Positions 359 to 13,947 of a stretch of DNA of 39,667 nt are shown here, piece after piece (within the stretch, counting starts at the first letter, position 1; each line of letters opens with the position of its first letter). The notes under the pieces are model-generated. The model saw only the letters and a program-made list of their open reading frames with translations, was not told the origin of the DNA and did not search any database. The stretch lies in the IMG/VR virus record IMGVR_UViG_3300045902_000657, positions 1-39,667 of that record; one strand, 5' to 3'. The translations under genes were made by a program, and so were the position numbers. The stretch comes from a virus.

Positions 359-691
359 TCACCCCACCCTTGCGTGCAGCAACCGTTTCCAGCGGCACCC
401 GCACCGGATCATTTTCTTACCCTGGCTGATCTGCGCCTCGGCGGCGCGGAGGATCTCCGTCTCATCGGCGAGCTCGATGAGGTTGAAGCCCTTCTGCCCG
501 CGCACGATCTGGTCGGGGGCAGCCTCGGCGAGCGCGCGGAGGTAGCGCTCCGGCCAGCCCGTGAGCCGGCCGAGGGCGTCACGGGTCAACCAGCCGTGCT
601 CGCGCAGGACCGCGATCAACCGCGCGAGGTCCGCCTCCGGTTTGGCATCCCGGACGAACGACAGCGGCAGTTGTTCGTCCAGTGCGACCAT
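359..691 (-). CDS. Small winged-helix-like phage protein
   Basis: The product is 110 aa. The ATG at 691 is one base past the stop of the upstream gene (stop codon 693-695), so the two are probably translated as a pair. Residues about 15-60 (ARLIAVLREHGWLTRDALGR and onward) have the pattern of a helix-turn-helix or winged-helix fold. A basic C-terminal tail follows (SQGKKMIRCGCRWKRLLHAR). I have seen this organisation in small proteins near the ends of phage early operons, but I cannot assign a named family. A DNA-binding role is inferred. Confidence 0.55.
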   Translation of the reverse strand: MVALDEQLPLSFVRDAKPEADLARLIAVLREHGWLTRDALGRLTGWPERYLRALAEAAPDQIVRGQKGFNLIELADETEILRAAEAQISQGKKMIRCGCRWKRLLHARVG

Positions 692-692
692 T

Positions 693-1367
693 TTAGAATG
701 GGCAGTCCACCGGCTCATCCGCCTCGCTGCCCGTGACGCGCACCACCGTCCGGCGGCCCTCGCAGCACCGTTTGCAATCGCATTGCAGGCCCGCCTTGGT
801 GCGCATGTCGTGGAGCGTGTCCCCGGCCTGGTTCCGAAGCCCGTGCCGGCCATTGATCCGCGCGCTGAGGGTCATCTTCAACCGCTGCAACTGGCTCGGC
901 CCCTCCTCCAGCTTGCCAGTGCGTTCATTTCGGCGGAACACCGGGTCGTCGGCCAAATCGTCCAGCGCGGGCGGCTGCACGCGCGACCCGCGGTGGAACA
1001 GGTCCTTGATCAACTCGGCCAGGTAACGCTCGGCGCCGTCGCGCCCGCCGGTGTAAAGCGCGAGGCAGGGCAGCAGATCCGACCGGATGAACTGCCGCTC
1101 CGTCCGTGCCGACCCGATCTCCGGCCGGCCATCCTCCATCGCCCCCTGCACCGAATCCGCCAGCATCTTCAGCCGCGCCTTCACCGCATCCACGTCGCGG
1201 GTGCGGTTCAACTCGGTCATGGATTCCACCGTGCGCCCCACGGCGCCGGAGATGACATCGAGCCGCTTCTGGCGGTCGCGCGCGTCCCACTTCTGCGTGG
1301 CGCACGCCGCCGGCCACCAATCACGCATGATGGTGATGATCTGGGGCTTGGTGATTGACGTGCTCAT
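693..1367 (-). CDS. Hypothetical phage early protein with Cys-rich C-terminus
   Basis: The product is 224 aa. The ATG at 1367 overlaps the stop of the IntI-like gene (TCAT on the plus strand, ATGA in the gene direction), and this decides the start. The first 170 residues are mostly helical and charged (ITKPQIITIMRDWW, then VESMTELNRTRDVDAVKAR). The C-terminus has a cysteine cluster CDCKRCCEGRR that could bind zinc. No family is recognised. The coupled overlap places the recombinase gene inside the phage operon rather than next to it. Confidence 0.6.
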   Translation of the reverse strand: MSTSITKPQIITIMRDWWPAACATQKWDARDRQKRLDVISGAVGRTVESMTELNRTRDVDAVKARLKMLADSVQGAMEDGRPEIGSARTERQFIRSDLLPCLALYTGGRDGAERYLAELIKDLFHRGSRVQPPALDDLADDPVFRRNERTGKLEEGPSQLQRLKMTLSARINGRHGLRNQAGDTLHDMRTKAGLQCDCKRCCEGRRTVVRVTGSEADEPVDCPF

Positions 1368-2311
1368 GCGATCTGCAAGGGGCTTGAAACCGCCCCGCAA
1401 TCCAGCGGACTGCGCCCACGCGCCGCCTCCCCGTGCAGGTAAACCATCGTCGTCTCCAGCGACTCGTGCCCGAGCAGGTCTTGAACCGTGCGCGGGTCGT
1501 TCCCGCATTGCATCGCGTGCGTGGCGAAGGCGTGCCGCAAGGTGTGCGGCGTCACCCGCTTGATGATCCCAGCGGCGCGCACCGCGGCCCGCATCTGCTT
1601 CGAGACGCTCTCCGGCGTGGCGTGCCACCGATACTGTCCGCGCACCAGCGTCGAAGGGAAAAGCCATTGCCACCGCAACTCGCGATTGGCACGCGGATAC
1701 TTCGCCGCCAGCCGGCCGGGCAACTCAACCAACCCGTGGCCGTTGGCCGTGTCCAGATCATGCAACGATTTCCGCCACGATAGATGACGCTGCAACGCCG
1801 GGGCCAGCATCACAGGCAACACTGTCAACCGTGATTTATCGCCCTTCCCTGCATGAACCCGCACCGTCAGGGCGCCGAGGTCAACATCCTGCACCCGCAA
1901 CCGGCAGCACTCCATCACCCGCAGGCCGGAGCCATACATCAACCCCGCCATCAGCTTTGCCTGCCCGCGCAAACCGGCGAAGATGCGGCCCAGTTCCTCG
2001 CGCGACGGGATCACGCGAAGCGTCTGATGGACGCGCGGCATCGGCGGGAGATCGAGGGCGCCCATGTCCTCCTTGAGCACGTGCTTGAACACGAAGGCCG
2101 CCGCGTTCAACGCCTGCTTTCTTGACACCGGCGAATAATTCGCCGCGTGCAAACTCAGCAGCCATGCTCGGACATCCGCCCCCGTCCACTGCGACGCCGG
2201 CTTTTGGGTAAACCCGTAGAACTTCCGGCACCAAAACACGTAACACGAGACCGTGTTCGGCTGCAGGCTCTGCTCGGCCATCGCAGCTTTGAGTTTGGTG
2301 ATCAGGCCCAT
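1364..2311 (-). CDS. Integron-integrase-like tyrosine recombinase
   Basis: The product is 315 aa, close to the usual size of integron integrases. It has an N-terminal SAM-like core-binding domain (about 3-90) and a catalytic domain with R131 (in GLR), K156 (AGKGDKSR), H256-x-x-R259 (PHTLRH), H282 (LLGHES) and the nucleophile Y291 (TTMVYLH). The signature that separates IntI from XerC/D-type enzymes is the extra helix segment before box II. Here it is residues about 195-222 (ELPGRLAAKYPRANR, then WQWLFPS). IntI recombines single-stranded folded attC sites with attI. The ATG at 2311 lacks a clear ribosome-binding site, and the stop overlaps the next phage gene. An attC-like site lies 340 bp away on the side where a cassette array is expected. 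Confidence 0.85.
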   Translation of the reverse strand: MGLITKLKAAMAEQSLQPNTVSCYVFWCRKFYGFTQKPASQWTGADVRAWLLSLHAANYSPVSRKQALNAAAFVFKHVLKEDMGALDLPPMPRVHQTLRVIPSREELGRIFAGLRGQAKLMAGLMYGSGLRVMECCRLRVQDVDLGALTVRVHAGKGDKSRLTVLPVMLAPALQRHLSWRKSLHDLDTANGHGLVELPGRLAAKYPRANRELRWQWLFPSTLVRGQYRWHATPESVSKQMRAAVRAAGIIKRVTPHTLRHAFATHAMQCGNDPRTVQDLLGHESLETTMVYLHGEAARGRSPLDCGAVSSPLQIA

Positions 2312-2342
2312 GATAAAACGAACCGGGTTGCTTGAATCAGCT

Positions 2343-2349
2343 GTTCGGC
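2343..2349 (+). other. Candidate attI-type core site GTTCGGC
   Basis: Just upstream of the IntI-like gene, on the cassette side, the plus strand reads CTGTTCGGCGAATGG. The 7-mer GTTCGGC is one base different from the right core of the attC-like site (GTTCGCC) and is the exact complement of that site's left core (GCCGAAC). The position fits attI. Core sites are short and degenerate, so chance similarity is possible. Confidence 0.3.
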
Positions 2350-2368
2350 GAATGGCACGGCTCCGAGT

Positions 2369-2584
2369 TCACGCTGCTCCTCCCTTCCCCACCCACCGGA
2401 AATGCTTCCTGAACGTCTCCGCGTCGCCACGCCACGAGTAGCCGCCGACTTCCTTCTCCGGCGACGGGTCACTCCACGTCGTCACGGTTCCGGCCTGCAC
2501 CTCGGTTACTGTGTGCCTGAGTCCTTGGCCGTCTCCGGGGCCGATGTATTGCCACACTGTCTTTTCTTGGATTGTTGGTGTCAT
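2369..2584 (-). CDS. Hypothetical protein of cassette-like block
   Basis: The product is 71 aa. The ATG at 2584 overlaps the stop of the 258-aa gene (ATGA). It is rich in aromatic and charged residues (WQYIGPGDGQGLRHTVTEVQ; then GYSWRGDAETFRKHFRWVG). I recognise no family. It lies between the candidate attI core and the attC-like site, so if these are real it is the gene of the first cassette. It is oriented against the normal cassette direction. Confidence 0.5.
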   Translation of the reverse strand: MTPTIQEKTVWQYIGPGDGQGLRHTVTEVQAGTVTTWSDPSPEKEVGGYSWRGDAETFRKHFRWVGKGGAA

Positions 2585-3357
2585 AGATTCGTTTCTCCCG
2601 GCTCCGCACCGGCCTCCCGCTCCGCTTCGTTGCGAACGCGCCGATTACAATTCGCCGAACCATGCGCTGCACCCAACTGGCTCGGCGCGGTGCGCGCCTC
2701 GCCAGTCCGAGCGGATTCCTGCGCCGAGCCAGTGGGTGAGCTTGGGTCGTTCGCCTCTACCGTCACCACGGTCACGTGCGGGTTCTCCGCATCTCGTCGG
2801 AAGCGCAAGACCGACCCACGCGATGCGTTATTGTTCCGCAGGTCTATTCGCAGCCCTTCCTCGTTGCCTTTTGCGACACACAGGCAAAAGAGCATCGTCT
2901 GGTATTCCGTCAGTTGGTCGCCGAGTTGATGGATGCGCCGACGCTGGGCGTTCACGGTTTCCATGACGCTGCTGATTTCGGCGTGGAGCTTTGAGATCGT
3001 TGCGTCACCACCAGTGCATCGGCGCACGAGCCATGTCACCCTGTCGGCTGTCGCGTTTGTTCCGATCCAGCAATCGTCCGGAACTTTCCCATAGGCCGCC
3101 AAGGCCGCCTCGATGGCCGCGATGTCTTCCCCTCGACCCACAGCGAGCTTCTTCCAGTAGGAGTCGCCGTAGCTTTTGAGCACGTTGGCTTCGTTCTCCG
3201 CGTTCACGGCCCGGCGTTTCCAGTGCCGTATGCAGTCCAGTCTCGCTCCACTTGGTTCGTGCTCACCGCCGCACTCTCCGCAATACAACCGAGGCGAACC
3301 AGACGGTGGAGCAGAACGCGCCTCCCGCTGTGCCGATTGAGTCTGTTGGTCATTCAT
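2581..3357 (-). CDS. Hypothetical protein with CxxC motif and coiled coil; tail encoded by attC-like site
   Basis: The product is 258 aa. It has an N-terminal CGECGG motif (about residue 27), a basic segment, then a predicted coiled coil (ISKLHAEISSVMETVNAQRR). Residues from about 200 onward (NDPSSPTGSAQ and beyond) are encoded by the attC-like palindrome, so the natural C-terminus was probably replaced when the site arrived. The ATG at 3357 overlaps the end of a short 16-codon leader frame that starts with GTG near 3405 (MSDAPDSAAPNRKQKL). This suggests translational coupling. No function can be assigned. The sequence is less GC-rich than its neighbours. Confidence 0.5.
   Translation of the reverse strand: MNDQQTQSAQREARSAPPSGSPRLYCGECGGEHEPSGARLDCIRHWKRRAVNAENEANVLKSYGDSYWKKLAVGRGEDIAAIEAALAAYGKVPDDCWIGTNATADRVTWLVRRCTGGDATISKLHAEISSVMETVNAQRRRIHQLGDQLTEYQTMLFCLCVAKGNEEGLRIDLRNNNASRGSVLRFRRDAENPHVTVVTVEANDPSSPTGSAQESARTGEARTAPSQLGAAHGSANCNRRVRNEAEREAGAEPGETNL
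2654..2755 (+). other. attC-like integron recombination site (102 bp)
   Basis: The left core GCCGAAC (2654-2660) and right core GTTCGCC (2749-2755) bracket an imperfect palindrome. The left inner site GCTGCACCC pairs with the right GGGTGAGC after removal of one base, which is the extrahelical base typical of the attC left arm. Next comes a longer stem, CTGGCTCGGCG against CGCCGAGCCAG. The right end GTGAGCTTGGGTCGTTCGCC resembles the common attC right end TGAGCTTxxxCGTTxxxx. The position of the extra base sets the orientation as plus, pointing away from the IntI-like gene as in a normal integron. The cores deviate from the RYYYAAC/GTTRRRY consensus at one or more positions. Confidence 0.7.
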
Positions 3358-3411
3358 AGCTTTTGTTTCCGATTCGGAGCCGCGCTGTCGGGCGCGTCGC
3401 TCACCTTTTTG

Positions 3412-3774
3412 TTATGCCGCTTCACCCTTCCACCAGTCCGGCTTCGGGAAGCGGTCGGTGAATGTCAGTTCGTTTTCCTCGGTATGGTCCACCTCGGATG
3501 CTTCGGGCCAGTAATCGGTGAGATTCGCTTTCGGCGGCAGGTATGCCACGACGATTGCGTAGCCATCACCGCTGCCGGTGTGCCACCACGGGCCGGGCGG
3601 CGGGAATTTCACGGGACGCGGATCGTCCTCGTTGGCGTGGAATCGGTAGCGATGCCAACGCGGCATAACCACCGGGTCGAGCGAACCACTGGCCCGCTTT
3701 GCAGTTTCTACGGTCTTTGTTTTCATAAAGTCATTGGCTTCGGCTAGCGTCACTGTCGGCCAGTGGTCGCTCAC
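3412..3774 (-). CDS. Hypothetical cassette-type protein
   Basis: The product is 120 aa from a GTG start (MSDHWPTVTL). It is rich in Trp, Pro and Asp/Glu (PPPGPWWHTGSGDGYAIVVA; then YWPEASEV; ends DRFPKPDWWKGEAA). Short proteins of this look are common as free-standing or integron-cassette genes of unknown function; that is recollection, not a search. The stop codon lies inside GCATAAC, as often happens where a cassette gene runs into the left core of an attC. The matching right core is not seen, so any second site is degraded. Confidence 0.5.
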   Translation of the reverse strand: MSDHWPTVTLAEANDFMKTKTVETAKRASGSLDPVVMPRWHRYRFHANEDDPRPVKFPPPGPWWHTGSGDGYAIVVAYLPPKANLTDYWPEASEVDHTEENELTFTDRFPKPDWWKGEAA

Positions 3775-3798
3775 CCGGAGCGTTCATGGGGGAACCTT

Positions 3799-4362
3799 TC
3801 ACTGCTTCTTTGTGGGCTCAGGCTTCGCCGCCTTGACCACCTTGGCGGCGCTCACCTTCGCGGGCTTCACGGTCACCTTCTCGGTCGTCTCGCGGGTGAC
3901 GCCGAGCTTGGCCAGCTCGTCGTTGCCCAGCGCCTCGAGCGCTTCCACGTTCGGCAGCTCCTCGATGCGCAGGAACGTCGCCGCTTTGAACTTTTCGTCC
4001 TGCGCCGCGCGCGCCTTGATCAGCGCCACGGTCGCCGCCGGGTTGGCCACGACCAGCCCGCTGACCGTGCGCTGTTCCACGGTGCCGAACGGCGTCTTGA
4101 TGCTTTTCTTCCCGTCCTCGCGCCACTCTGGGTGCCGGGCGAAGAGCGCCTTGATCTCCGCATCGAGCTCGGCCAGGCGCTCCTGGTTCACGACGTAATC
4201 CGCCGACCACGCGGCGGCGGCGGCGAGCGAATCCACGCTCATGCGCTGCTCGACCTTCTCGAGTGAGAGCGTGACGGCGGAGTGTTCCTGTTGCAGCTCG
4301 CACAGCCGGGCGAAATCCTGGCTCGGTGCGGCTTGTTCTTCGGGGGATAGTGTTTTGATCAT
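3799..4362 (-). CDS. gam: Mu Gam-like host-nuclease inhibitor
   Basis: The product is 187 aa, about the length of Mu Gam (174 aa). Gam binds double-stranded DNA ends and shields them from RecBCD-type exonucleases. The N-terminal two thirds is a long coiled coil (FARLCELQQEHSAVTLSLEK). The family-typical block GKKSIKTPFGTVEQRTVSGL (about 84-103) follows, and a Lys/Ala-rich tail ends the protein. Only the ATG at 4362 overlaps the upstream stop (ATGA). Its place in the early operon downstream of the transposition genes agrees with Mu gene order. Confidence 0.85.
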   Translation of the reverse strand: MIKTLSPEEQAAPSQDFARLCELQQEHSAVTLSLEKVEQRMSVDSLAAAAAWSADYVVNQERLAELDAEIKALFARHPEWREDGKKSIKTPFGTVEQRTVSGLVVANPAATVALIKARAAQDEKFKAATFLRIEELPNVEALEALGNDELAKLGVTRETTEKVTVKPAKVSAAKVVKAAKPEPTKKQ

Positions 4363-4625
4363 GGGGTCTGTGAGTTGATGGTTGACGGTTGATAGATGAG
4401 TGATTCACCGCGGAGGCGCGGAGGCGCGGAGGAAACCGGCGATCCCTTCTGTCTCAGCGTCTCCGCGCCTCTGCGGTTCAATGCGGCAATTTCCGCGTCG
4501 GTGAAACCGGCGTCCCGCTCGGGGTCGTTGTCGGCCTCGGCGGCGCGCGCGAGCGAGGCCAGCCAGGCGAGCAACAGCAGCATCGTCAGGCCGGTGAGGG
4601 TGATGAAGATCAACAGGATGTTCAT
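4359..4625 (-). CDS. Small single-pass membrane protein with repeat-derived tail
   Basis: The product is 88 aa. Residues 2-28 form one clear membrane helix (NILLIFITLTGLTMLLLLAW). An acidic stretch follows (EADNDPERDAGFTDAEIAAL). From about residue 51 the protein is the translation of a dispersed palindromic repeat (RRGAETLRQKGS; PPRLRGESLIY; STINSQTP), so the original C-terminus has probably been lost. The ATG at 4625 overlaps the previous stop. The function is unknown. Confidence 0.6.
   Translation of the reverse strand: MNILLIFITLTGLTMLLLLAWLASLARAAEADNDPERDAGFTDAEIAALNRRGAETLRQKGSPVSSAPPRLRGESLIYQPSTINSQTP
4371..4480. repeat. Dispersed palindromic repeat (GAGGCGCGGAG family) with GTTGATGG flank
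   Basis: The left arm CACCGCGGAGGCGCGGAG (from 4406) pairs with the right arm CTCCGCGCCTCTGCGGTT (4461-4478) around a loop of about 25 bases. It is flanked on the left by a second low-complexity element (TGAGTTGATGGTTGACGG). The same arms recur at 4656, 11221, 13515, 13577, 12640 and 31795. The element supplies the C-terminal codons of the membrane protein. Confidence 0.8.
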
Positions 4626-5254
4626 GCGGTTTGATGGTTGATGGGTTTTGTGGTTTCACCGCCGAGGCACTGAGACGCGGAGAACGAAGGCAATTCCCCG
4701 CCGTCGCTCTGCGTCTCCGCGTCTCTGCGGTTTACGTGGCGCTCGCGCAGGGCGGGCGGGATGAAGGCGACTTGCAGCACGCGGAAGATGTCCTCCTCGG
4801 TGGCGCTGGCGAGCAGCGAGCCGTCGCTGGCGAACATGCCGTGATACGGGTTCCAGGTGAGCCCGAGCCGCTTGGCGTGTTCGACCAGGTAAATGTTGTG
4901 ATCCTTGCTGCCCGTGCGGCAGAGCAGGAGCGAGCCGAAATTGGTGGGCTTGGTTTCGAGCAGGTCTCGCTGCTCCGGGTGCGCGATGAAGATGTCCACC
5001 TGCAGCTTACCGCCGGCGCGGTTATCGAGTTCCACGATGAGGTTCTGCTGCCCGTCGAGCACGACCTTTGCACGCTGCTTGCAACGCGCGCGCAGCGGCT
5101 CCAACTGGCCCTCCTTGGGCAGCACCACGAGGTCGATGTCGTTGACCCAATCGCGCCCGCGCCGGAGGCTGCCGGCGATCTCGATCTGGTCGCAGTAGGG
5201 TGCGAGGATCTTCTTCACCGATTCCGCGAGGGGCCAGGCGGCGGTGGCTTTCAT
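4622..5254 (-). CDS. DNA polymerase X-type nucleotidyltransferase
   Basis: The product is 210 aa. It carries the family-X palm signature: GS at 28-29 (IAGSLRRGRDWVNDIDLVV) with metal-binding D39 and D41, and a third Asp at D87 (LQVDIFI). The thumb-like segment is GSLLLCRTGSKDHN, VEHAKRLGL and EEDIFRVLQVAFIPPALRE. The family catalyses nucleotide addition, typically in gap repair. The N-terminal HhH/8-kDa domain of full polymerases X is absent, so this is a minimal catalytic unit. The last ~35 residues (VNRRDAETQ onward) are repeat-derived. It sits next to gam in an operon for transposition, so a role in repairing the short gaps left by strand transfer is plausible but inferred. Confidence 0.8.
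   Translation of the reverse strand: MKATAAWPLAESVKKILAPYCDQIEIAGSLRRGRDWVNDIDLVVLPKEGQLEPLRARCKQRAKVVLDGQQNLIVELDNRAGGKLQVDIFIAHPEQRDLLETKPTNFGSLLLCRTGSKDHNIYLVEHAKRLGLTWNPYHGMFASDGSLLASATEEDIFRVLQVAFIPPALRERHVNRRDAETQSDGGELPSFSASQCLGGETTKPINHQTA
4630..4733. repeat. Dispersed palindromic repeat, second copy
   Basis: The left arm CACCGCCGAGGCACTGAG (from 4658) and right arm CTGCGTCTCCGCGTCTCTGC form an imperfect hairpin. A TTTGATGGTTGATGGGTTT element (4630-4648) flanks it. This is the same composite arrangement as the copy at 4371-4480, so both modules may have arrived together or been duplicated. It encodes the C-terminal tail of the nucleotidyltransferase. Confidence 0.75.
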
Positions 5255-5472
5255 CGCGCGCCTCCTGGCTTCGGACTGAGCTCGACGGAGTCTCGCCCCA
5301 CCTTCCGGGCGGCGAGTTCGGCCTCGTAGATTTCCTTTTGCCGCTGGAGCACGCGGATCTCGCTAACCTTGCGGGCTCGCGTCAGCGAGCGCTCCGTCAT
5401 GCGGATTTCCAGTTCAAGCCGGGGCACGCTGGCGCGCTCGGCGAACACTTTGGCGAGGGCGACGTTTTTCAT
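5251..5472 (-). CDS. Small basic helical protein
   Basis: The product is 73 aa from an ATG at 5472 preceded by GGAGGCGCGCG. It is strongly helical and charged (ERASVPRLELEIRMTERSLT). The last residues (GRDSVELSPKPG) include the translation of a dispersed repeat (5279-5302). It is overlapped by its neighbours on both sides (ATGA at each end). No family is recognised. Confidence 0.6.
   Translation of the reverse strand: MKNVALAKVFAERASVPRLELEIRMTERSLTRARKVSEIRVLQRQKEIYEAELAARKVGRDSVELSPKPGGAR
5279..5302. repeat. Dispersed repeat (CGACGGAGTCTCG family)
   Basis: GAGCTCGACGGAGTCTCG followed by CCCCACC. The same element in inverse orientation is at 10330-10352 and, as a facing pair, at 12574-12640. 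It encodes part of the C-terminus of the 73-aa protein. Confidence 0.7.
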
Positions 5473-5810
5473 CGCGCGCCTCCCCCGGTGGTAATGCGGT
5501 CGAGGATGCCCCGCAGCAGCACCGCGCAGCATTGCAGCGCCTCCTCCTCCAACCGGGCCGGATCGGGCCTGCGCTTGAACATCTCCATGCGCAACTCGTG
5601 CAACCCTTCCTCCAGGATGCCGAGGGTGTGATGCCAGCCGGCGTGCGGATCATTGTGGCGCGTCCGCGCGTCCACGACGGCCGCCTCCAGTTTGAGACAC
5701 AGCAACCGCAGACCCTCGTCGTTGCCCGCCTGCACCCAGCCCAGGTTGGTGAGGGTGCGGTAGGGCAATGGCACTCCGGCGCTTTGAGCTTTCCGATTTC
5801 CACTTTTCAC
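5469..5810 (-). CDS. Hypothetical early protein
   Basis: The product is 113 aa from a GTG at 5810. The start overlaps the stop of the upstream 82-aa gene, and the end overlaps the 73-aa gene. It is all-helical in appearance (GLRLLCLKLEAAVVDARTRH; EEGLHELRMEMFKRRPD). The first residues lie in a low-complexity TTTCC-rich element (5778-5808), so the native N-terminus may differ. No family is recognised. Confidence 0.55.
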   Translation of the reverse strand: MKSGNRKAQSAGVPLPYRTLTNLGWVQAGNDEGLRLLCLKLEAAVVDARTRHNDPHAGWHHTLGILEEGLHELRMEMFKRRPDPARLEEEALQCCAVLLRGILDRITTGGGAR

Positions 5811-6077: not shown

Positions 6078-7226
6078 TTACTCCCACTCCCCTTCTTGCA
6101 CCGCCTGCTTCTCGATGCGCAGGTGTGCATCCACAAAGTGCGCCCACGTGGTGCGCGAGCCGGCCTTCTGGGCGAGCTTGCGGGCGTAGCGTAGGCGCTC
6201 GGTGATGGCCTTGAGGCCGTCGCGTTTGGCGAGCTGGCGCAGAATCTCGTAGGGCTTTTCGGTGATCGCCTCGACGGTCGTCTTCTGGTCGCGATCCGGG
6301 AAGGCGAGCTTGTAACGGCCGAGGATCGCAGCGAGGTCGCCCTTGGTGGGCATGACCGGCAACGCCACACGATGAACGCCGCGGCGCCACACCTGCACCA
6401 GCTCGCCCTGGCTGGCGGCTTGCAGGTTGTCGAGATGCGTCCAGCTCAGCACCATCCCGCACTTGCTGAAGTCGTGGATGCGCCGGATCACTTCGATGCA
6501 GGCGAAGAAACTGGCCAGCCGGTAGGTGTGCTTGAGGAGGTGCAGCTCATCAATGATGAGGAGCGTGCGCGGTGAGAGCCCGTTGCGGATGCGGTCAATC
6601 AGCGCGGCGGTGTTCGAGTTGTCGCTGATGCCGACGCCCTTGGCGATGCGCCGCACCATGCCGCCGAGCCCCGAGGCCGCGTCGAGCTCGACCATGTAGG
6701 TGCGGCCGTGGTTGTTGGTCTGGGTGTAGCGGTGCAGCGCCCAGGTCTTCCCGATGTGGCTCGGCCCCCAGAGGATCACCGGCGTGCGCGATTCGAGCGC
6801 GAGGTCGCACGCGGTGAAGATCTTTTTTGCGGTCGGCGTCTGGATGAACTCGCTGTCCTGCTCCTCCCACTTCTGCCGCTCGCGTTCGAGGAACTTGCGG
6901 ATGTTGACGATCAACTCGGCGGGCGGCTCCATCTGCTCCTTGGTGGTCGGGTGCAGATATTTCCCGGTGCAGAGCTTGTAGATGACGTTGTCCGAGTAAT
7001 CCACCTCCTTGGCGAACTGCCCCAGCGCGACGGGATGCGCCGGATCAATGCACCAGCGGAAGGCCGCGACCAATGCGTCCACCGCCTCCTCGCGATAGTT
7101 CCGCGTGTTGACACGGATCGTGTCCAGGGAGAAGGGCCACGTGGAACGCACCGTGGAATTGACCATCGCCTGCGTGGTCTCCGCCTTCACCATCTCTCCG
7201 CCCGCGCTCTCGTTGCCATCCGACAT
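6078..7226 (-). CDS. MuB-type AAA+ target-DNA ATPase
   Basis: The product is 382 aa; Mu B is 312. Residues 35-100 form an N-terminal DNA-binding-like domain (LGQFAKEVDYSDNVIYKLCT). The AAA+ module has Walker A GPSHIGKT (154-161) and Walker B LLIIDE (223-228), followed by EVIRRIHDF and the sensor-1-like segment CGMVLSWTHLDNL. B proteins form ATP-dependent filaments on target DNA and stimulate the transposase. The gene lies 20 bp downstream of the transposase, in the Mu order A then B. The Ser-His-Ile filling of the P-loop is unusual but keeps the GK[T/S] needed for ATP binding. Confidence 0.88.
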   Translation of the reverse strand: MSDGNESAGGEMVKAETTQAMVNSTVRSTWPFSLDTIRVNTRNYREEAVDALVAAFRWCIDPAHPVALGQFAKEVDYSDNVIYKLCTGKYLHPTTKEQMEPPAELIVNIRKFLERERQKWEEQDSEFIQTPTAKKIFTACDLALESRTPVILWGPSHIGKTWALHRYTQTNNHGRTYMVELDAASGLGGMVRRIAKGVGISDNSNTAALIDRIRNGLSPRTLLIIDELHLLKHTYRLASFFACIEVIRRIHDFSKCGMVLSWTHLDNLQAASQGELVQVWRRGVHRVALPVMPTKGDLAAILGRYKLAFPDRDQKTTVEAITEKPYEILRQLAKRDGLKAITERLRYARKLAQKAGSRTTWAHFVDAHLRIEKQAVQEGEWE

Positions 7227-7246
7227 GTTGCCTCCTGGGTTTCGTG

Positions 7247-9358
7247 CTACAGCAATCCCTCCGCGCTGAAGGCTTCTGCGCCTTCGGCGTTCGAGGCCGG
7301 CTGCTCGGCCTCGGAAATGGTTTCCGCCGCGCCATCCGCGATGGGGGCCGGCTCCAGCAATTCCTCCGCGCCGCCCTTATACCTGCGCAACTCGCGCGCG
7401 TGCTCGGGCGTGTGTCCGCTCTCCGCCGCCCGCGCCGCCGCCACCACGCCGCGGTTGTGATCGAGCATGTGCGCGCGGGCCGCGGCCTCGTCGAACTGCC
7501 GCGCGGCCACGTGGCCGCGCTTGGGCGCCTCCCAAGCCGCCTGCCGGCCCATCTGGCGCTTGATGCCCTCGAGGTCGTTGTCCGACGGCATCTCCCACGC
7601 CTCGACCAGGCCCACGTGCGCGCCGTGCGCGTTGCACAACTGCGCAACGCGGGGATCGAGCGGGTTGAAAAAGAGCAGATACTTCTCACCCGGCAGGTAG
7701 GTGCGCCCGCGGCTGTCGGCGAGGAACCGGAACCGGCCGGGGCCGAACCGCACCTTGTCCTCGAACTCGATCACGCGGTTCTTCGGCACGGTTACCTCGA
7801 CGGCATCCTCCAGCTCGAGCAGGCGGCAATACTGGTTCGGGGTGAGCCGCGTGAGTTCCTCGCGGTGCAAGGCCCACACTTCCGCGCGCGAGCGCTTGAC
7901 CGCGCGCGTCAGGGGCAGCGCGGGGTCGCCGAGCTTCGCGCGCAACACGAGCTGCTCGCTCTCCGGCAGCCGCGCGAGATCCTCGGCCTCATACCAGTTG
8001 GCGGCGTCGGGATCGGGGCGCCATTGCACGCGCTCGAAGCCCAGCGCGTCCCAGCCTTCGAGGTCGTGGTCGGTCTGGGTCATCAGGGTGTGGATCGCGT
8101 CGAAGGCGTAGCGCGAGAACTGGCCGAACGTGGCCACGGGCAGCAACAGTTCCGCGGCGTATTCGGCGGGAAGCTGCTCCGCCTGTTTGAGCACGCGCAG
8201 GGCGTATTGCTCGCGGCCGTGCAGCTCGGCGGGACCGTTGAGGCGCGCGTTGCTGCCGGTGCGGCCGGGCAGCCGCTGCAGGCGGTCCTCGATGATGCGC
8301 CACGCGCCCTCGATGAGCGGCTTGAACTTGAAGTTGCCCTTGCCGCGCGGGGCGAACTGCCCCGGATGCGCCGCGCGCGCGAACATGCTGCCGCGGCTCA
8401 ACCGCACCTTCCCGCCCGTCTCGCAATAGAGTTTCCGCTCCAGCTCGTTCCCGCGCCGCACGGTGGCCGTGCCGTTCTCCAGGAAAAGGATCGTGCCCGC
8501 CTCGTCGCCGCGGTAGCCGTGCGCGCAGAGCCAGTGCAGCAGGAAAAACCGGAACTGCTGCTCGGTCAGCTTGCGCTTCTTCTCGGCGTCGGCGTCCCAG
8601 AGGATCGGCCGCACCGCCATGTCGAAGAACGCGCTCAACCCGTCCACGCCGCCGAAGCAGATCGGCCGCGTGACGATCTTCTGCCCGGCGAAATGCACCT
8701 TCACGTCGAACTCGTGATCGTCGAACTCGTAGCGCTCGCCGAGCTTCAGGCCCACGCGCGTCGTGCGCACGGGCGGCCGGAATTCGCTCGCGGCAAACAA
8801 TCCCTCCTTGGCCGCCGCCTGCTCGTAGGGATCGCGCAACTGCTCGACCACGCGGCGCAACTGCCGCTCGCTCCAGCCTGCCGGATGTTCGAGGCCGGGC
8901 GCGGCCTTGGGCCACTTGTCGTAGCCGGGAATCTTGTCGTAACGCGCCGGCGGCAGGCCGTTGTCGTGATGCGTCTTCCAGATCAGCATCAACTCCTCGT
9001 AAGCGCCGGCGAACGTGCGCGCGTGCTTCTCGTCGAGGCTGAGCACGAACTGCTTGAACTCCGCGGGCAACCCGATAACCACCCCGGTCTGCCACAGACC
9101 GGGGACCATGCGGCGGTCCACCAGCACGCGCCAGTCGCGGCGCCGCATGTAGTCGCCCACGCGTCGGTAGAGCACCTTCGTCTTCGGCAAGCCCTCGCGG
9201 CCGGCCAGGGCACGGCACGCGGCGAGCAGGCTCTTCGCCCGCATCAGGCCCTCCAGCACCTCACAGATCGCGGCCAGCTCCGCATAGGCGTCTCGCGGCA
9301 GGATCAGCAGCTCCGCGGGGTCCACATTCAGACGCGCAACGATGAGGTTGTGGTGCAT
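7247..9358 (-). CDS. MuA-type DDE transposase
   Basis: The product is 703 aa (MuA is 663). The ATG at 9358 follows CGGAGACTAATCACC. The N-terminal 200 residues look like helical DNA-binding domains. An RNase H-like catalytic domain follows, with candidate acidic residues D213/D214 (RYEFDDHEFDV), E294 (LFLENGTATV) and E350 (FKPLIEGAW). The spacing of 56 residues between the last two equals that between D336 and E392 in MuA. A beta-barrel-like domain follows (VPKNRVIEFEDKVRFGPGRF; DSRGRTYLPGEKYLLFF), and an acidic tail ends the protein. The middle residue is Glu in an ENG context, where most DDE enzymes have Asp. It cuts phage ends and joins them to target DNA together with the downstream ATPase. 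Confidence 0.88.
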   Translation of the reverse strand: MHHNLIVARLNVDPAELLILPRDAYAELAAICEVLEGLMRAKSLLAACRALAGREGLPKTKVLYRRVGDYMRRRDWRVLVDRRMVPGLWQTGVVIGLPAEFKQFVLSLDEKHARTFAGAYEELMLIWKTHHDNGLPPARYDKIPGYDKWPKAAPGLEHPAGWSERQLRRVVEQLRDPYEQAAAKEGLFAASEFRPPVRTTRVGLKLGERYEFDDHEFDVKVHFAGQKIVTRPICFGGVDGLSAFFDMAVRPILWDADAEKKRKLTEQQFRFFLLHWLCAHGYRGDEAGTILFLENGTATVRRGNELERKLYCETGGKVRLSRGSMFARAAHPGQFAPRGKGNFKFKPLIEGAWRIIEDRLQRLPGRTGSNARLNGPAELHGREQYALRVLKQAEQLPAEYAAELLLPVATFGQFSRYAFDAIHTLMTQTDHDLEGWDALGFERVQWRPDPDAANWYEAEDLARLPESEQLVLRAKLGDPALPLTRAVKRSRAEVWALHREELTRLTPNQYCRLLELEDAVEVTVPKNRVIEFEDKVRFGPGRFRFLADSRGRTYLPGEKYLLFFNPLDPRVAQLCNAHGAHVGLVEAWEMPSDNDLEGIKRQMGRQAAWEAPKRGHVAARQFDEAAARAHMLDHNRGVVAAARAAESGHTPEHARELRRYKGGAEELLEPAPIADGAAETISEAEQPASNAEGAEAFSAEGLL

Positions 9359-9363
9359 GGTGA

Positions 9364-10212
9364 TTAGTCTCCGAGTTCGGCGGCCAGGCGCTTGGACATC
9401 GCCTTGCACGCGCGTTGCAAGTCCACCAGGACAGCCAGGGGCACGAGCTTCAGGTCGGGATTGTTGGCCATCGAAATCAGATCGAGGCCGGCGCGGCGGC
9501 ACAGGCCGGACAGGTGCTCGCGGCGATGCTCGATTGCGTCGCGGGTCTTGCCGGCCGCCGCGCAATGCTTCTCCCACTCCGCCCACACCTCCTTGCCCAC
9601 GATGCCGGGCTTGCGTTTGGGATAAACCCCGTCCTTGATCAGTGCCGGGTGCCGGGTGCGGATGAACTTCTCCCAGCTCAGGTCGCCCCCGGCCGCCGGC
9701 GGCGCGCCCGCCAGAAACTTGAACGTGAGCTGCGACAGGGTCTTGCCGTCCACCGCCGCGAACACCTGCTCCTGGACCGCACGCGCCTTGTCGCTCAATT
9801 CGGCGGCGGGCAGGGAAAGCACCTCCGAGAGGGACAGGTTTTCCACGTGGAACCGTTCCCCCGGAACAAAGTGGCAACCGTGTCCACTTTGGCCTTTTTC
9901 CAAGGAAATCATCGCAAACCGGGTTGCCTCCATCCAGCGGGTGGCGCGTCTCCAGAAGGGCATGTCGGTCGGATGCTTGCCCTTCGGGAGCGGGATGTCC
10001 GGGAACACATTCGCGTGCAGCCACGGCCCAAACTCACCGTGCTTCACCTGGGCCTTTGCCTCCAGCAGCAGCGCGCCGATGGCCACGATCTTGCGCATCA
10101 TCTTGCCCTCGGCGTATTCCGCCTCGGCCCACGCCAGCTTGATGCGGTCCGCCAGCGCTTTGTCCACGGCGGGCGCCACGGCGCCGCCGGCATGTTTCAC
10201 GAGGTCGCTCAT
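9364..10212 (-). CDS. DUF3102-type phage early protein
   Basis: The product is 282 aa. The segment IGALLLEAKAQVKHGEFGPW (about 46-65) is the DUF3102 signature, a helical region found in many phage and plasmid proteins of unknown role. A helical middle follows (LSEVLSLPAAELSDKARAVQ), then a basic C-terminal region (HRREHLSGLCRRAGLDLIS). The ATG at 10212 overlaps the upstream stop (ATGA), and the stop lies 6 bp before the transposase ATG. A DNA-binding or regulatory role is inferred from the operon position. Confidence 0.65.
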   Translation of the reverse strand: MSDLVKHAGGAVAPAVDKALADRIKLAWAEAEYAEGKMMRKIVAIGALLLEAKAQVKHGEFGPWLHANVFPDIPLPKGKHPTDMPFWRRATRWMEATRFAMISLEKGQSGHGCHFVPGERFHVENLSLSEVLSLPAAELSDKARAVQEQVFAAVDGKTLSQLTFKFLAGAPPAAGGDLSWEKFIRTRHPALIKDGVYPKRKPGIVGKEVWAEWEKHCAAAGKTRDAIEHRREHLSGLCRRAGLDLISMANNPDLKLVPLAVLVDLQRACKAMSKRLAAELGD

Positions 10213-12835: not shown

Positions 12836-13579
12836 TTGAGCCAACGCGCGTTCATCTTCGTCCCTGGAATCCTGCACGACCCCGGCTGGGCCACGGGCTG
12901 GATTGATCGCGCCTGCACATGGGTCAGCGCAAACCTCAAGGGCGACACCGCCCATGAGTTCGAGTATTACGCCCGGCCGCTGACGCGGCGCTTCACGCTC
13001 GACAAGCGCGGGCGCGAGCTGGCCAACCTCATCGCCGAACTCGCCGGCGGCAGCGTCATCCGCAAGCTGATCCTCGTCGGCCACTCGAATGGCGGCGAAG
13101 TCATCTGCCGAGCCCTCGCGAAACTCGCGCCCCACCTGAACCACGCCCGGCGCCGCCAGGGCGGTGAATCGTTCCTCGTTGACCGCGTGCATCTGCTCTC
13201 GCCGGCGTGCTCGGCGGACTTCGAGAACAACGGCCTCAACACCGCGCTCCTGGTCAACAACGTGGGCGACGTGTCGGTCTATGTCGCTGGGCGCGATGGG
13301 AAATTCCTCCATCCAATGTGGTGGGCGCGCATGAGCCGCGCCGTGGGGTTCCTCGGGCTGGGTTACGGGCTGCTTGGGCTCAAGGGGCCGCAGGACGTGG
13401 CCCCGGCCGTGATGGCGCGCGTTCACACTTTCACCGAACCGCAGTTCGAGCACGGGACATGGTTCGCCGATCACGTCTTCGGCAACACCATGCGCCTGGT
13501 CACCGCGCCGCGGGTTGAACCGCGGAGACGCGGAGACGCGGAGATCCAGGTGCCGCAAACGACGGGGGGAAGCCTGTGA
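12836..13579 (+). CDS. Alpha/beta-hydrolase-fold protein in the lysis position
   Basis: The product is about 247 aa if the TTG at 12836 is the start. No ATG or ribosome-binding site is evident, so the start is uncertain. The strand FIFVPGILHDPGW supplies the oxyanion-hole region. The nucleophile elbow is GHSNGG with Ser at about 84. Asp in NNVGDVSV and His in WFADHVFGN are candidates for the rest of the triad. The fold covers lipases and esterases. The gene sits between the repressor and a lipoprotein gene, where Mu-like phages keep endolysin and lysis genes, so envelope degradation is possible but inferred. The last ~20 residues (VEPRRRGDAE) come from a dispersed repeat. Confidence 0.7.
   Translation: MSQRAFIFVPGILHDPGWATGWIDRACTWVSANLKGDTAHEFEYYARPLTRRFTLDKRGRELANLIAELAGGSVIRKLILVGHSNGGEVICRALAKLAPHLNHARRRQGGESFLVDRVHLLSPACSADFENNGLNTALLVNNVGDVSVYVAGRDGKFLHPMWWARMSRAVGFLGLGYGLLGLKGPQDVAPAVMARVHTFTEPQFEHGTWFADHVFGNTMRLVTAPRVEPRRRGDAEIQVPQTTGGSL
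13515..13545. repeat. Half copy of dispersed palindromic repeat
   Basis: GTTGAACCGCGGAGACGCGG followed by AGACGCGGAG, left arm only. It is read as the C-terminal codons of the hydrolase. The next full copy begins 32 bases downstream. Confidence 0.7.
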
Positions 13580-13660
13580 ACCGCAGAGACGCAGAGACGC
13601 GGAGAAAAGCCATGACCCGAAAATTCCTTTTACCTCTGCGCCTCTGCGCCTCTGCGGTGA
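13577..13660. repeat. Dispersed palindromic repeat spanning a gene start
   Basis: The left arm TGAACCGCAGAGACGCAGAG and right arm CTCTGCGCCTCTGCGGTGAT bracket the start of the lipoprotein gene. The left arm supplies the ribosome-binding site (CGGAGAAAAGCC) and the right arm encodes the middle of its signal peptide. Confidence 0.8.
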
Positions 13661-13947
13661 TCGCTGCGCTGGTCACCGGCTGTTCGCTCGTGCCGCGCAA
13701 CACCCTGCGCATCGGCACGGTCACCATCAGTTCGCCCAAGGACGTGACGCTCGAAGACTTCGCGTTGAGCACCGGCCCCGACGGCACGGTGGTCGTCACC
13801 TTCAAGCGGCTGACCTCCACCAATTCCCCCGCCGTGATTGACAAGGCTGCGGCGGGCCAGGTCGCGATCAACGAGAGCATCAAACGCATCGCCGGCGAAG
13901 TCGCCGAACGCGCCGCGGCTGGAGCCGCCAAGGGGGTTACCCCGTGA
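13612..13947 (+). CDS. Small lipoprotein with repeat-encoded signal peptide
   Basis: The product is 111 aa. The ATG at 13612 follows CGGAGAAAAGCC. The signal peptide MTRKFLLPLRLCASAVIAAL ends in a lipobox LVTGC, so lipidation at C24 or so is expected. The mature part is small and Thr/Val-rich (LRIGTVTISSPKDVTLEDFA), with an amphipathic C-terminal helix (ESIKRIAGEVAERAAAGAAK). The core LRLCASAVI of the signal is encoded by the right arm of a dispersed palindrome. Lying between the hydrolase and a membrane protein, it could be a spanin-like or exclusion lipoprotein; neither is shown. Confidence 0.7.
   Translation: MTRKFLLPLRLCASAVIAALVTGCSLVPRNTLRIGTVTISSPKDVTLEDFALSTGPDGTVVVTFKRLTSTNSPAVIDKAAAGQVAINESIKRIAGEVAERAAAGAAKGVTP

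Follow-up and report, generated by a model that had tools for sequence, protein, structure and literature searches.

An integron-like cassette array with inverted genes in the early operon of a Mu-like phage

The complete IMG/VR virus record IMGVR_UViG_3300045902_000657 (39,667 bases; the whole of this stretch was analysed and is called the window here) very probably carries an integron of working type that belongs to the phage itself, with a phage-dedicated integron integrase (IntI) and with inverted cassettes that are read together with the early operon. What has been established by observation is the identity of IntI and its clade, the structure of the attC sites, the cassette boundary rule, a conserved attI-like flank, the variability of the cassettes, their inversion, and the start codons within attC loops. 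Activity, the route of expression, and the benefit to the phage are inferred; data on recombination, excision, or expression are absent.

By its gene content (MuA, MuB, Gam, and Mu-like structural genes), the window is a Mu-like transposable phage, for which replicative transposition is inferred. Its early operon runs leftward, beside a rightward structural side that includes a terminase, a portal, and a Mu I protease-like protein. The early genes that concern the integron are the following:

693..1367, minus strand: GemA-like early gene, downstream of intI and translationally coupled to it; a 37% identical homologue lies at the same operon end in contig L009
1364..2311, minus strand: intI, phage integron integrase of 315 aa (TIGR02249, tree, 2A3V match); its stop overlaps the next start (ATGA)
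3799..4362, minus strand: Mu Gam-like gene (PF07352, E 1.8e-11), adjoining the distal end of the array
6078..7226, minus strand: MuB-like transposition ATPase (phrog_296, E 7e-30; AAA_22)
7247..10024, minus strand: MuA-like transposase (phrog_310, E 6e-15); relatives have homologues beside MuB

The name GemA-like reflects resemblance only, without a family match. The overlap that couples intI to this gene had been described in a first-pass annotation of the DNA; read directly, it is ATGA, and L009 has it as well. Among 17 MuB-related records, IntI is present in some and was not seen in the available sequence of others, e.g. L149; consequently, the integron is accessory in Mu-like relatives. 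L149 itself is Mu-like (MuB 58%) and has a GemA-like gene plus a homologue of window 359-694, with IntI and attC absent from the available stretch, making it a possible candidate for an empty-site comparison.

The first-pass annotation had taken the intI product for an IntI-like protein with catalytic residues R131, H256, R259, H282, and Y291, and both points hold. The NCBIfam model TIGR02249, 'integron integrase', scores 274.7 bits on the window protein against a curated cut-off of 265, with residues 2-313 of 315 aligned, while the XerC, XerD, and XerA models fall far under their own cut-offs and the PHROGs phage-integrase models score far below TIGR02249. The best PDB match is 2A3V, the IntI4 of V. 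cholerae (E 1.8e-48). The protein has both the IntI-specific segment and the catalytic R-H-R-H-Y set that define an integron integrase, and the five catalytic residues are invariant among the phage IntIs.

Phylogeny had been set beforehand as a test that could refute this identification. A tree was built from the phage IntIs, 29 Verrucomicrobiota IntIs, class 1, Vibrio, and Shewanella IntIs, and XerD; L013, a duplicate of L012, was excluded. The window IntI is nested among the integron integrases, apart from XerD, as one of 10 phage IntIs whose clade occupies one side of a branch with support 100/100 and a stem of 0.93. No host chromosomal IntI in the tree falls inside this clade, and the window IntI is about 36-46% identical to the host chromosomal IntIs. 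An ordinary phage tyrosine integrase or XerC/D is thus ruled out by the profile scores and the tree placement. Close relatives with IntI include L009, whose IntI is 68% identical to that of the window and which is a contig of 4.5 kb belonging to a Verrucomicrobia subdivision 3 MAG, and the phage contigs L011-L015, L027, L028, L080, and L081. A single-protein scan of viral contigs gave no matches, and alignments were used instead. From this one MAG, the host of the phage family is inferred to lie, at least partly, within the Verrucomicrobiota. All members are metagenomic contigs, with no cultured phage among them.

Other Mu-like relatives, L145 (15033-15727, 15933-16889), L150 (12197-13237), and L087/L157, have MuB proteins 45-64% identical to that of the window and IntIs that are merely 33-41% identical; in L145, two attCs are chained. 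Phages of this kind may have acquired IntI on more than one occasion. In L007 (Virus Rctr41k; 4689-5633 and 6801-7274), an IntI-like gene 33% identical to the window's is closely followed by a C5 methyltransferase gene, whose product is 39% identical to that of a cassette gene of L014.

Between the attI-like site and the Gam gene lie three complete cassettes, each ending in an attC site:

2312..2349, plus strand: attI-like site; crossover G^TT between 2343 and 2344; phage side conserved in 10 related loci
2344..2749, plus strand: cassette 1, 406 bp; start TTCGGC, R'' GCCGAAC (7/7)
2654..2755, plus strand: attC1; R'' GCCGAAC, R' GTTCGCC; two extra left-arm bases
2750..3411, plus strand: cassette 2, 662 bp; start TTCGCC, R'' GGCGAAC (7/7)
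3293..3417, plus strand: attC2; R'' GGCGAAC, R' GTTATGC; about three extra left-arm bases
3412..3782, plus strand: cassette 3, 371 bp; start TTATGC, R'' GCATAAC (7/7)
3663..3788, plus strand: attC3; R'' GCATAAC, R' GTTCATG

A cassette of an integron is a circle before insertion, and this requires that its opening 7-mer match its own R'' box. In 3/3 cassettes of the window, the first seven bases and the cassette's own R'' box are exact reverse complements, so that the boundary rule is met at 7/7 each time. The three sites also have the expected anatomy of an attC (R''/R', L''/L', and extrahelical bases), with 2-3 extra bases on the left arm. The arms of attC1 are GCTGCACCCAACTGGC / GCT-CACCC-ACTGGC, with two extra bases on the intI-proximal arm, the arrangement seen in canonical attCs, and its bottom strand folds with z = -4.1; those of attC3 are CCGGGTCGAGCGAACCACTGGCC / CCGGGT-GAGCG-ACCACTGGCC, with z = -4.3. 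The weakest of the three is attC2 (arm 29, fold z +0.7, not significant); nonetheless, its boundaries chain at 7/7. The palindrome that had been noted about 340 bp from the intI start is attC1, at 343 bp. Thus, the earlier placing of an attC beside intI was correct, but its count was too low, since attC2, attC3, and two cassettes had been missed.

The attC finder was our own script, controlled with shuffles and with ordinary arrays in place of a published covariance model; the boundary rule and the shuffles were judged to be stronger than such a model. In 1000 dinucleotide shuffles of 2312-3810, 988 contained no comparable attC and 12 contained one, against the three observed, and a chained pair at 7/7 appeared in 0/1000. 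A search in which R''-R' pairing was required missed attC2 and attC3. This requirement was wrong because the R' of an integrated cassette belongs to the next cassette, and it was dropped.

The same arrangement recurs, with other contents, in related phages. Nine of them have the same integrase behind a conserved attI-like boundary and different cassettes. Ten loci share the flank that separates the array from intI (gene strand xxxxAACAG), with the four x bases following the cassette; this conserved flank, ending in G^TT and adjoining intI, meets the description of an attI site, although its function is inferred. Boundaries match at 7/7 for 4/4 cassettes in L015, 2/2 in L014, three in L027, and one in L081, and at 6/7 and 7/7 in L009; some boundaries in L009, L011, L028, and L012 match at just 5 or 6 of 7. 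A fourth L027 cassette was discarded as a gapped chance match. In L011 and L015, the DNA is alike upstream and through intI, the arrays have no DNA in common, and similarity returns at the attI edge. The comparison of relatives proposed earlier has yielded attC sites as well as a variable segment, one edge of which is the intI-side boundary named beforehand (2343/2344); this test, like the phylogeny, did not refute the integron reading. Cassettes of three relatives encode DNA methyltransferases (C5 in L014, N6/N4 in L015 and L027), and by Pfam, another L015 cassette gene encodes an HTH protein. The product of an L086 cassette gene is 67% identical to that of a gene in L119 and 50% to that of a gene in L002, all of them beside attC sites, and an L028 cassette gene has a counterpart with 47% identity in L145, a Mu-like phage whose IntI is a different one. 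Such cassettes are also present in phage records without a detected IntI.

The recombination geometry, intI-attI-attC, is standard, because the extra bases sit on the intI-proximal arm at nearly every resolved attC, as they do in arrays L016 and L078 when analysed with the same script; the normal orientation assigned to the palindrome in the first-pass annotation is borne out in this way. A reversed geometry, which would put attI at the distal edge of the array, is excluded by the extra bases together with the conserved half-site on the intI side. What is unusual is the direction of the genes. The cassette genes run towards intI, co-directional with the early operon, and are thus inverted relative to attC, a feature that, like the start codons in attC loops, was absent from the earlier reading. 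In the window, these genes are the following:

2369..2584, minus strand: ORF71, gene of cassette 1, inverted with respect to attC; start codon overlapping the ORF258 stop (ATGA)
2581..3357, minus strand: ORF258, cassette 2 gene, inverted; ATG at 3357 in the attC2 loop
3412..3726, minus strand: ORF120, 104 aa, inverted; ATG at 3726 in the attC3 loop

The C-terminus of ORF258 extends through attC1 into cassette 1. The attC1 loop lacks a start codon, and ORF71 starts 70 nt beyond attC1. Homologues of ORF120 in other phages start at about the end of attC, without the roughly 22-residue N-terminus that attC encodes. A protein with two tandem ORF120-like domains is present in a large viral contig (L140:4681-6276).

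All of the cassette genes with a Pfam match (one C5 methyltransferase, two N6/N4 methyltransferases, and the HTH protein) lie on the inverted strand. ORFs of at least 60 aa that start in the attC loop were found at 15/17 attCs accompanying a phage IntI and at 20/24 attCs from other phage contigs, compared with 2/36 in host or ordinary arrays. The set of 24 sites, mostly collected by DNA pattern after the idea had been formed, is the fairer test. When the direction of the longest ORF was scored, 11/17 phage-IntI sites, 17/24 sites of other phage contigs, and 8/36 controls were inverted. However, this score is noisy because genes extending past the cassette edge were excluded, and the loop-start test was used instead. 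The crossover lies upstream of the start codon, and recombination therefore leaves the start, the N-terminus, and the frame intact. Most loop start codons are partly unpaired in the predicted mRNA fold; a clear Shine-Dalgarno sequence precedes only some of them.

Two viral contigs have arrays of the ordinary kind. L016 (IMGVR_UViG_2834908352_000001) is a 48-kb contig ending in a class-1-like array of at least 13 attCs with mostly direct genes. L133 (IMGVR_UViG_3300046522_000744) has eight ordinary-type attCs and direct genes despite having the GCAGCGCATGGTTCGGC core of the window. Since the pattern matches include this ordinary direct array, GCAGCGCATGGTTCGGC alone is no marker of the phage type.

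Several other accounts of these observations have been considered. Published work has documented the capture of host integron segments by phages, such as those of V. anguillarum and P1 (PMC9892861), and IntI-like genes are numerous in Verrucomicrobiota hosts. The window might accordingly hold nothing more than a piece of a host chromosomal integron, picked up by the phage and passively carried. This is very unlikely, given that the phage IntIs constitute a single long-stem clade (100/100) without a host chromosomal IntI, that the reading frame, the attI-like flank, and intact R boxes have been kept across 10 phages, and that direct genes, rather than inverted, loop-start ones, predominate in the host array L078 and in the phage-contig arrays L016 and L133. 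It is improbable, if slightly less so, that the hairpins are translational or other regulatory elements of early genes, with IntI acting elsewhere (e.g. in multimer resolution) and the cassettes now immobile. The position of start codons in the loops, mostly partly unpaired in the predicted mRNA fold, and the clusters of such sites in phage records without a detected IntI would suit a regulatory role; yet a regulatory hairpin need not retain two extra bases on one arm, AAC/GTT R boxes, or a 7/7 match between cassette start and R'', and certain gene families recur as cassettes from one phage to another.

An error of orientation, in which the genes would really lie on the attC top strand, the cassettes would be ordinary, and intI would be at the wrong end, is hardly credible. 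An attC is nearly palindromic, and its orientation does rest on small asymmetries, but the extra bases are intI-proximal at nearly every resolved site, as in L016 and L078, and a second, independent sign (a conserved half-site on the intI side and variable bases after GTT) agrees. The possibility that a Mu-like phage and a bacterial integron were joined during assembly arises from the fact that all of the data are metagenome assemblies; since contigs from different samples and one MAG agree both in the clade and in the type of phage operon around it, it can be virtually dismissed.

An integron belonging to the phage thus remains the preferred reading, and the following model is proposed for it. 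The phage-dedicated IntI would recognise the attI-like site just upstream of intI, and circular cassettes would be inserted or removed through folded attC bottom strands at G^TT, a step inferred from integron biochemistry. The inverted cassette genes between Gam and intI would be read from the phage early transcript and not from an integron Pc promoter; a Pc reading away from intI would be antisense to these genes because they face the other way. In this arrangement, attC forms the 5' end of the cassette gene: the start codon is usually in the loop, and the arm adjoining the gene body supplies the codons for the first residues. A likely use is the swapping of accessory and anti-restriction genes among phages of this host group. 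Two roles had been suggested earlier. Of these, exchange of accessory genes at the end of the early operon is a better fit than a platform for bacterial cassettes, given that the cassette genes, some of which encode DNA methyltransferases, are inverted so as to be read together with the phage operon. A broader hypothesis, which is somewhat favoured but held with less assurance, is that there is a phage-specialised cassette pool, separate from the bacterial one, whose attC serves both as recombination site and as translation-start region, and which is shared by phages with different types of IntI to swap anti-restriction and other early genes.

Phage-borne integrons as such are already published. 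Qi et al. 2023 (PMC9892861) described integrons, an In0, and attC clusters (CALINs) in phages and found that phage attCs were recombined with attI1 by IntI1 in an assay. The complete phage integrons in that work were class 1, Vibrio, or Shewanella integrons close to those of hosts, and the intIA of an In0 phage had been taken from the host. The window resembles these phages in having IntI, attC/attI, and cassettes in a phage genome, methyltransferase cassettes included; in contrast, none was reported in Mu-like phages of Verrucomicrobiota, and no inverted loop-start genes were described. The attC of TJE1, from a cluster of Qi et al. and checked here, is 60 nt long and terminates a methyltransferase gene in direct orientation. 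The sedentary chromosomal integrons of Verrucomicrobiota (L078) share the intI-attI-attC geometry, the two extra attC bases, and an IntI about 41% identical, but their genes are mostly direct, with attC at the 3' end, and loop-start ORFs of at least 60 aa occur at only 2/10 attCs of L078, the longest being 74 aa. In the atypical integrons of the Treponema type (PMC3607928), transcription of intI leads towards attI, and the cassettes come after intI. These integrons share with the window a common direction of transcription for intI and the cassette genes; in the window, however, transcription of intI leads away from attI, and the cassette genes point at intI. An inverted integron of the Treponema type was rejected, as the attI-like site lies upstream of the intI start. 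With Mu-like transposable phages, the window shares MuA, MuB, Gam, the Mu I protease, and a leftward early operon beside rightward structural genes, and it differs in that its early operon holds an integron with exchangeable genes. In the open literature (subscription papers and preprints being outside the scope), the searches turned up neither inverted loop-start cassettes nor a Mu-like phage with a dedicated integron. What looks new is an IntI clade dedicated to phages whose inverted cassettes, with their starts in the loop, sit in the early operon of a transposable phage.

If this is true, a phage lineage maintains an integron of its own rather than just carrying that of a host, and the design of the cassette (inverted gene, start in the attC loop, crossover upstream of the frame) is adapted to phage transcription. 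There would then be a concrete mechanism behind the mosaic of accessory and anti-restriction genes in phages, together with a clean test of the mutual constraint between attC structure and gene expression. The findings also suggest that, with such cassettes, tools that expect attC at the 3' end may pick the wrong gene.

Two other features of the early region were observed. Window 4622-5254, within the early operon, encodes a PolX-like nucleotidyltransferase with DNA polymerase beta palm and thumb domains, homologues of which are found near IntI in L027, L028, L080, and L145. In addition, GC-rich REP-like palindromes of the type ACCGC(A/G)GAG(A/G)CGC(A/G)GAG lie between early genes at 4404-4477, 4655-4697, and 13554-13688.
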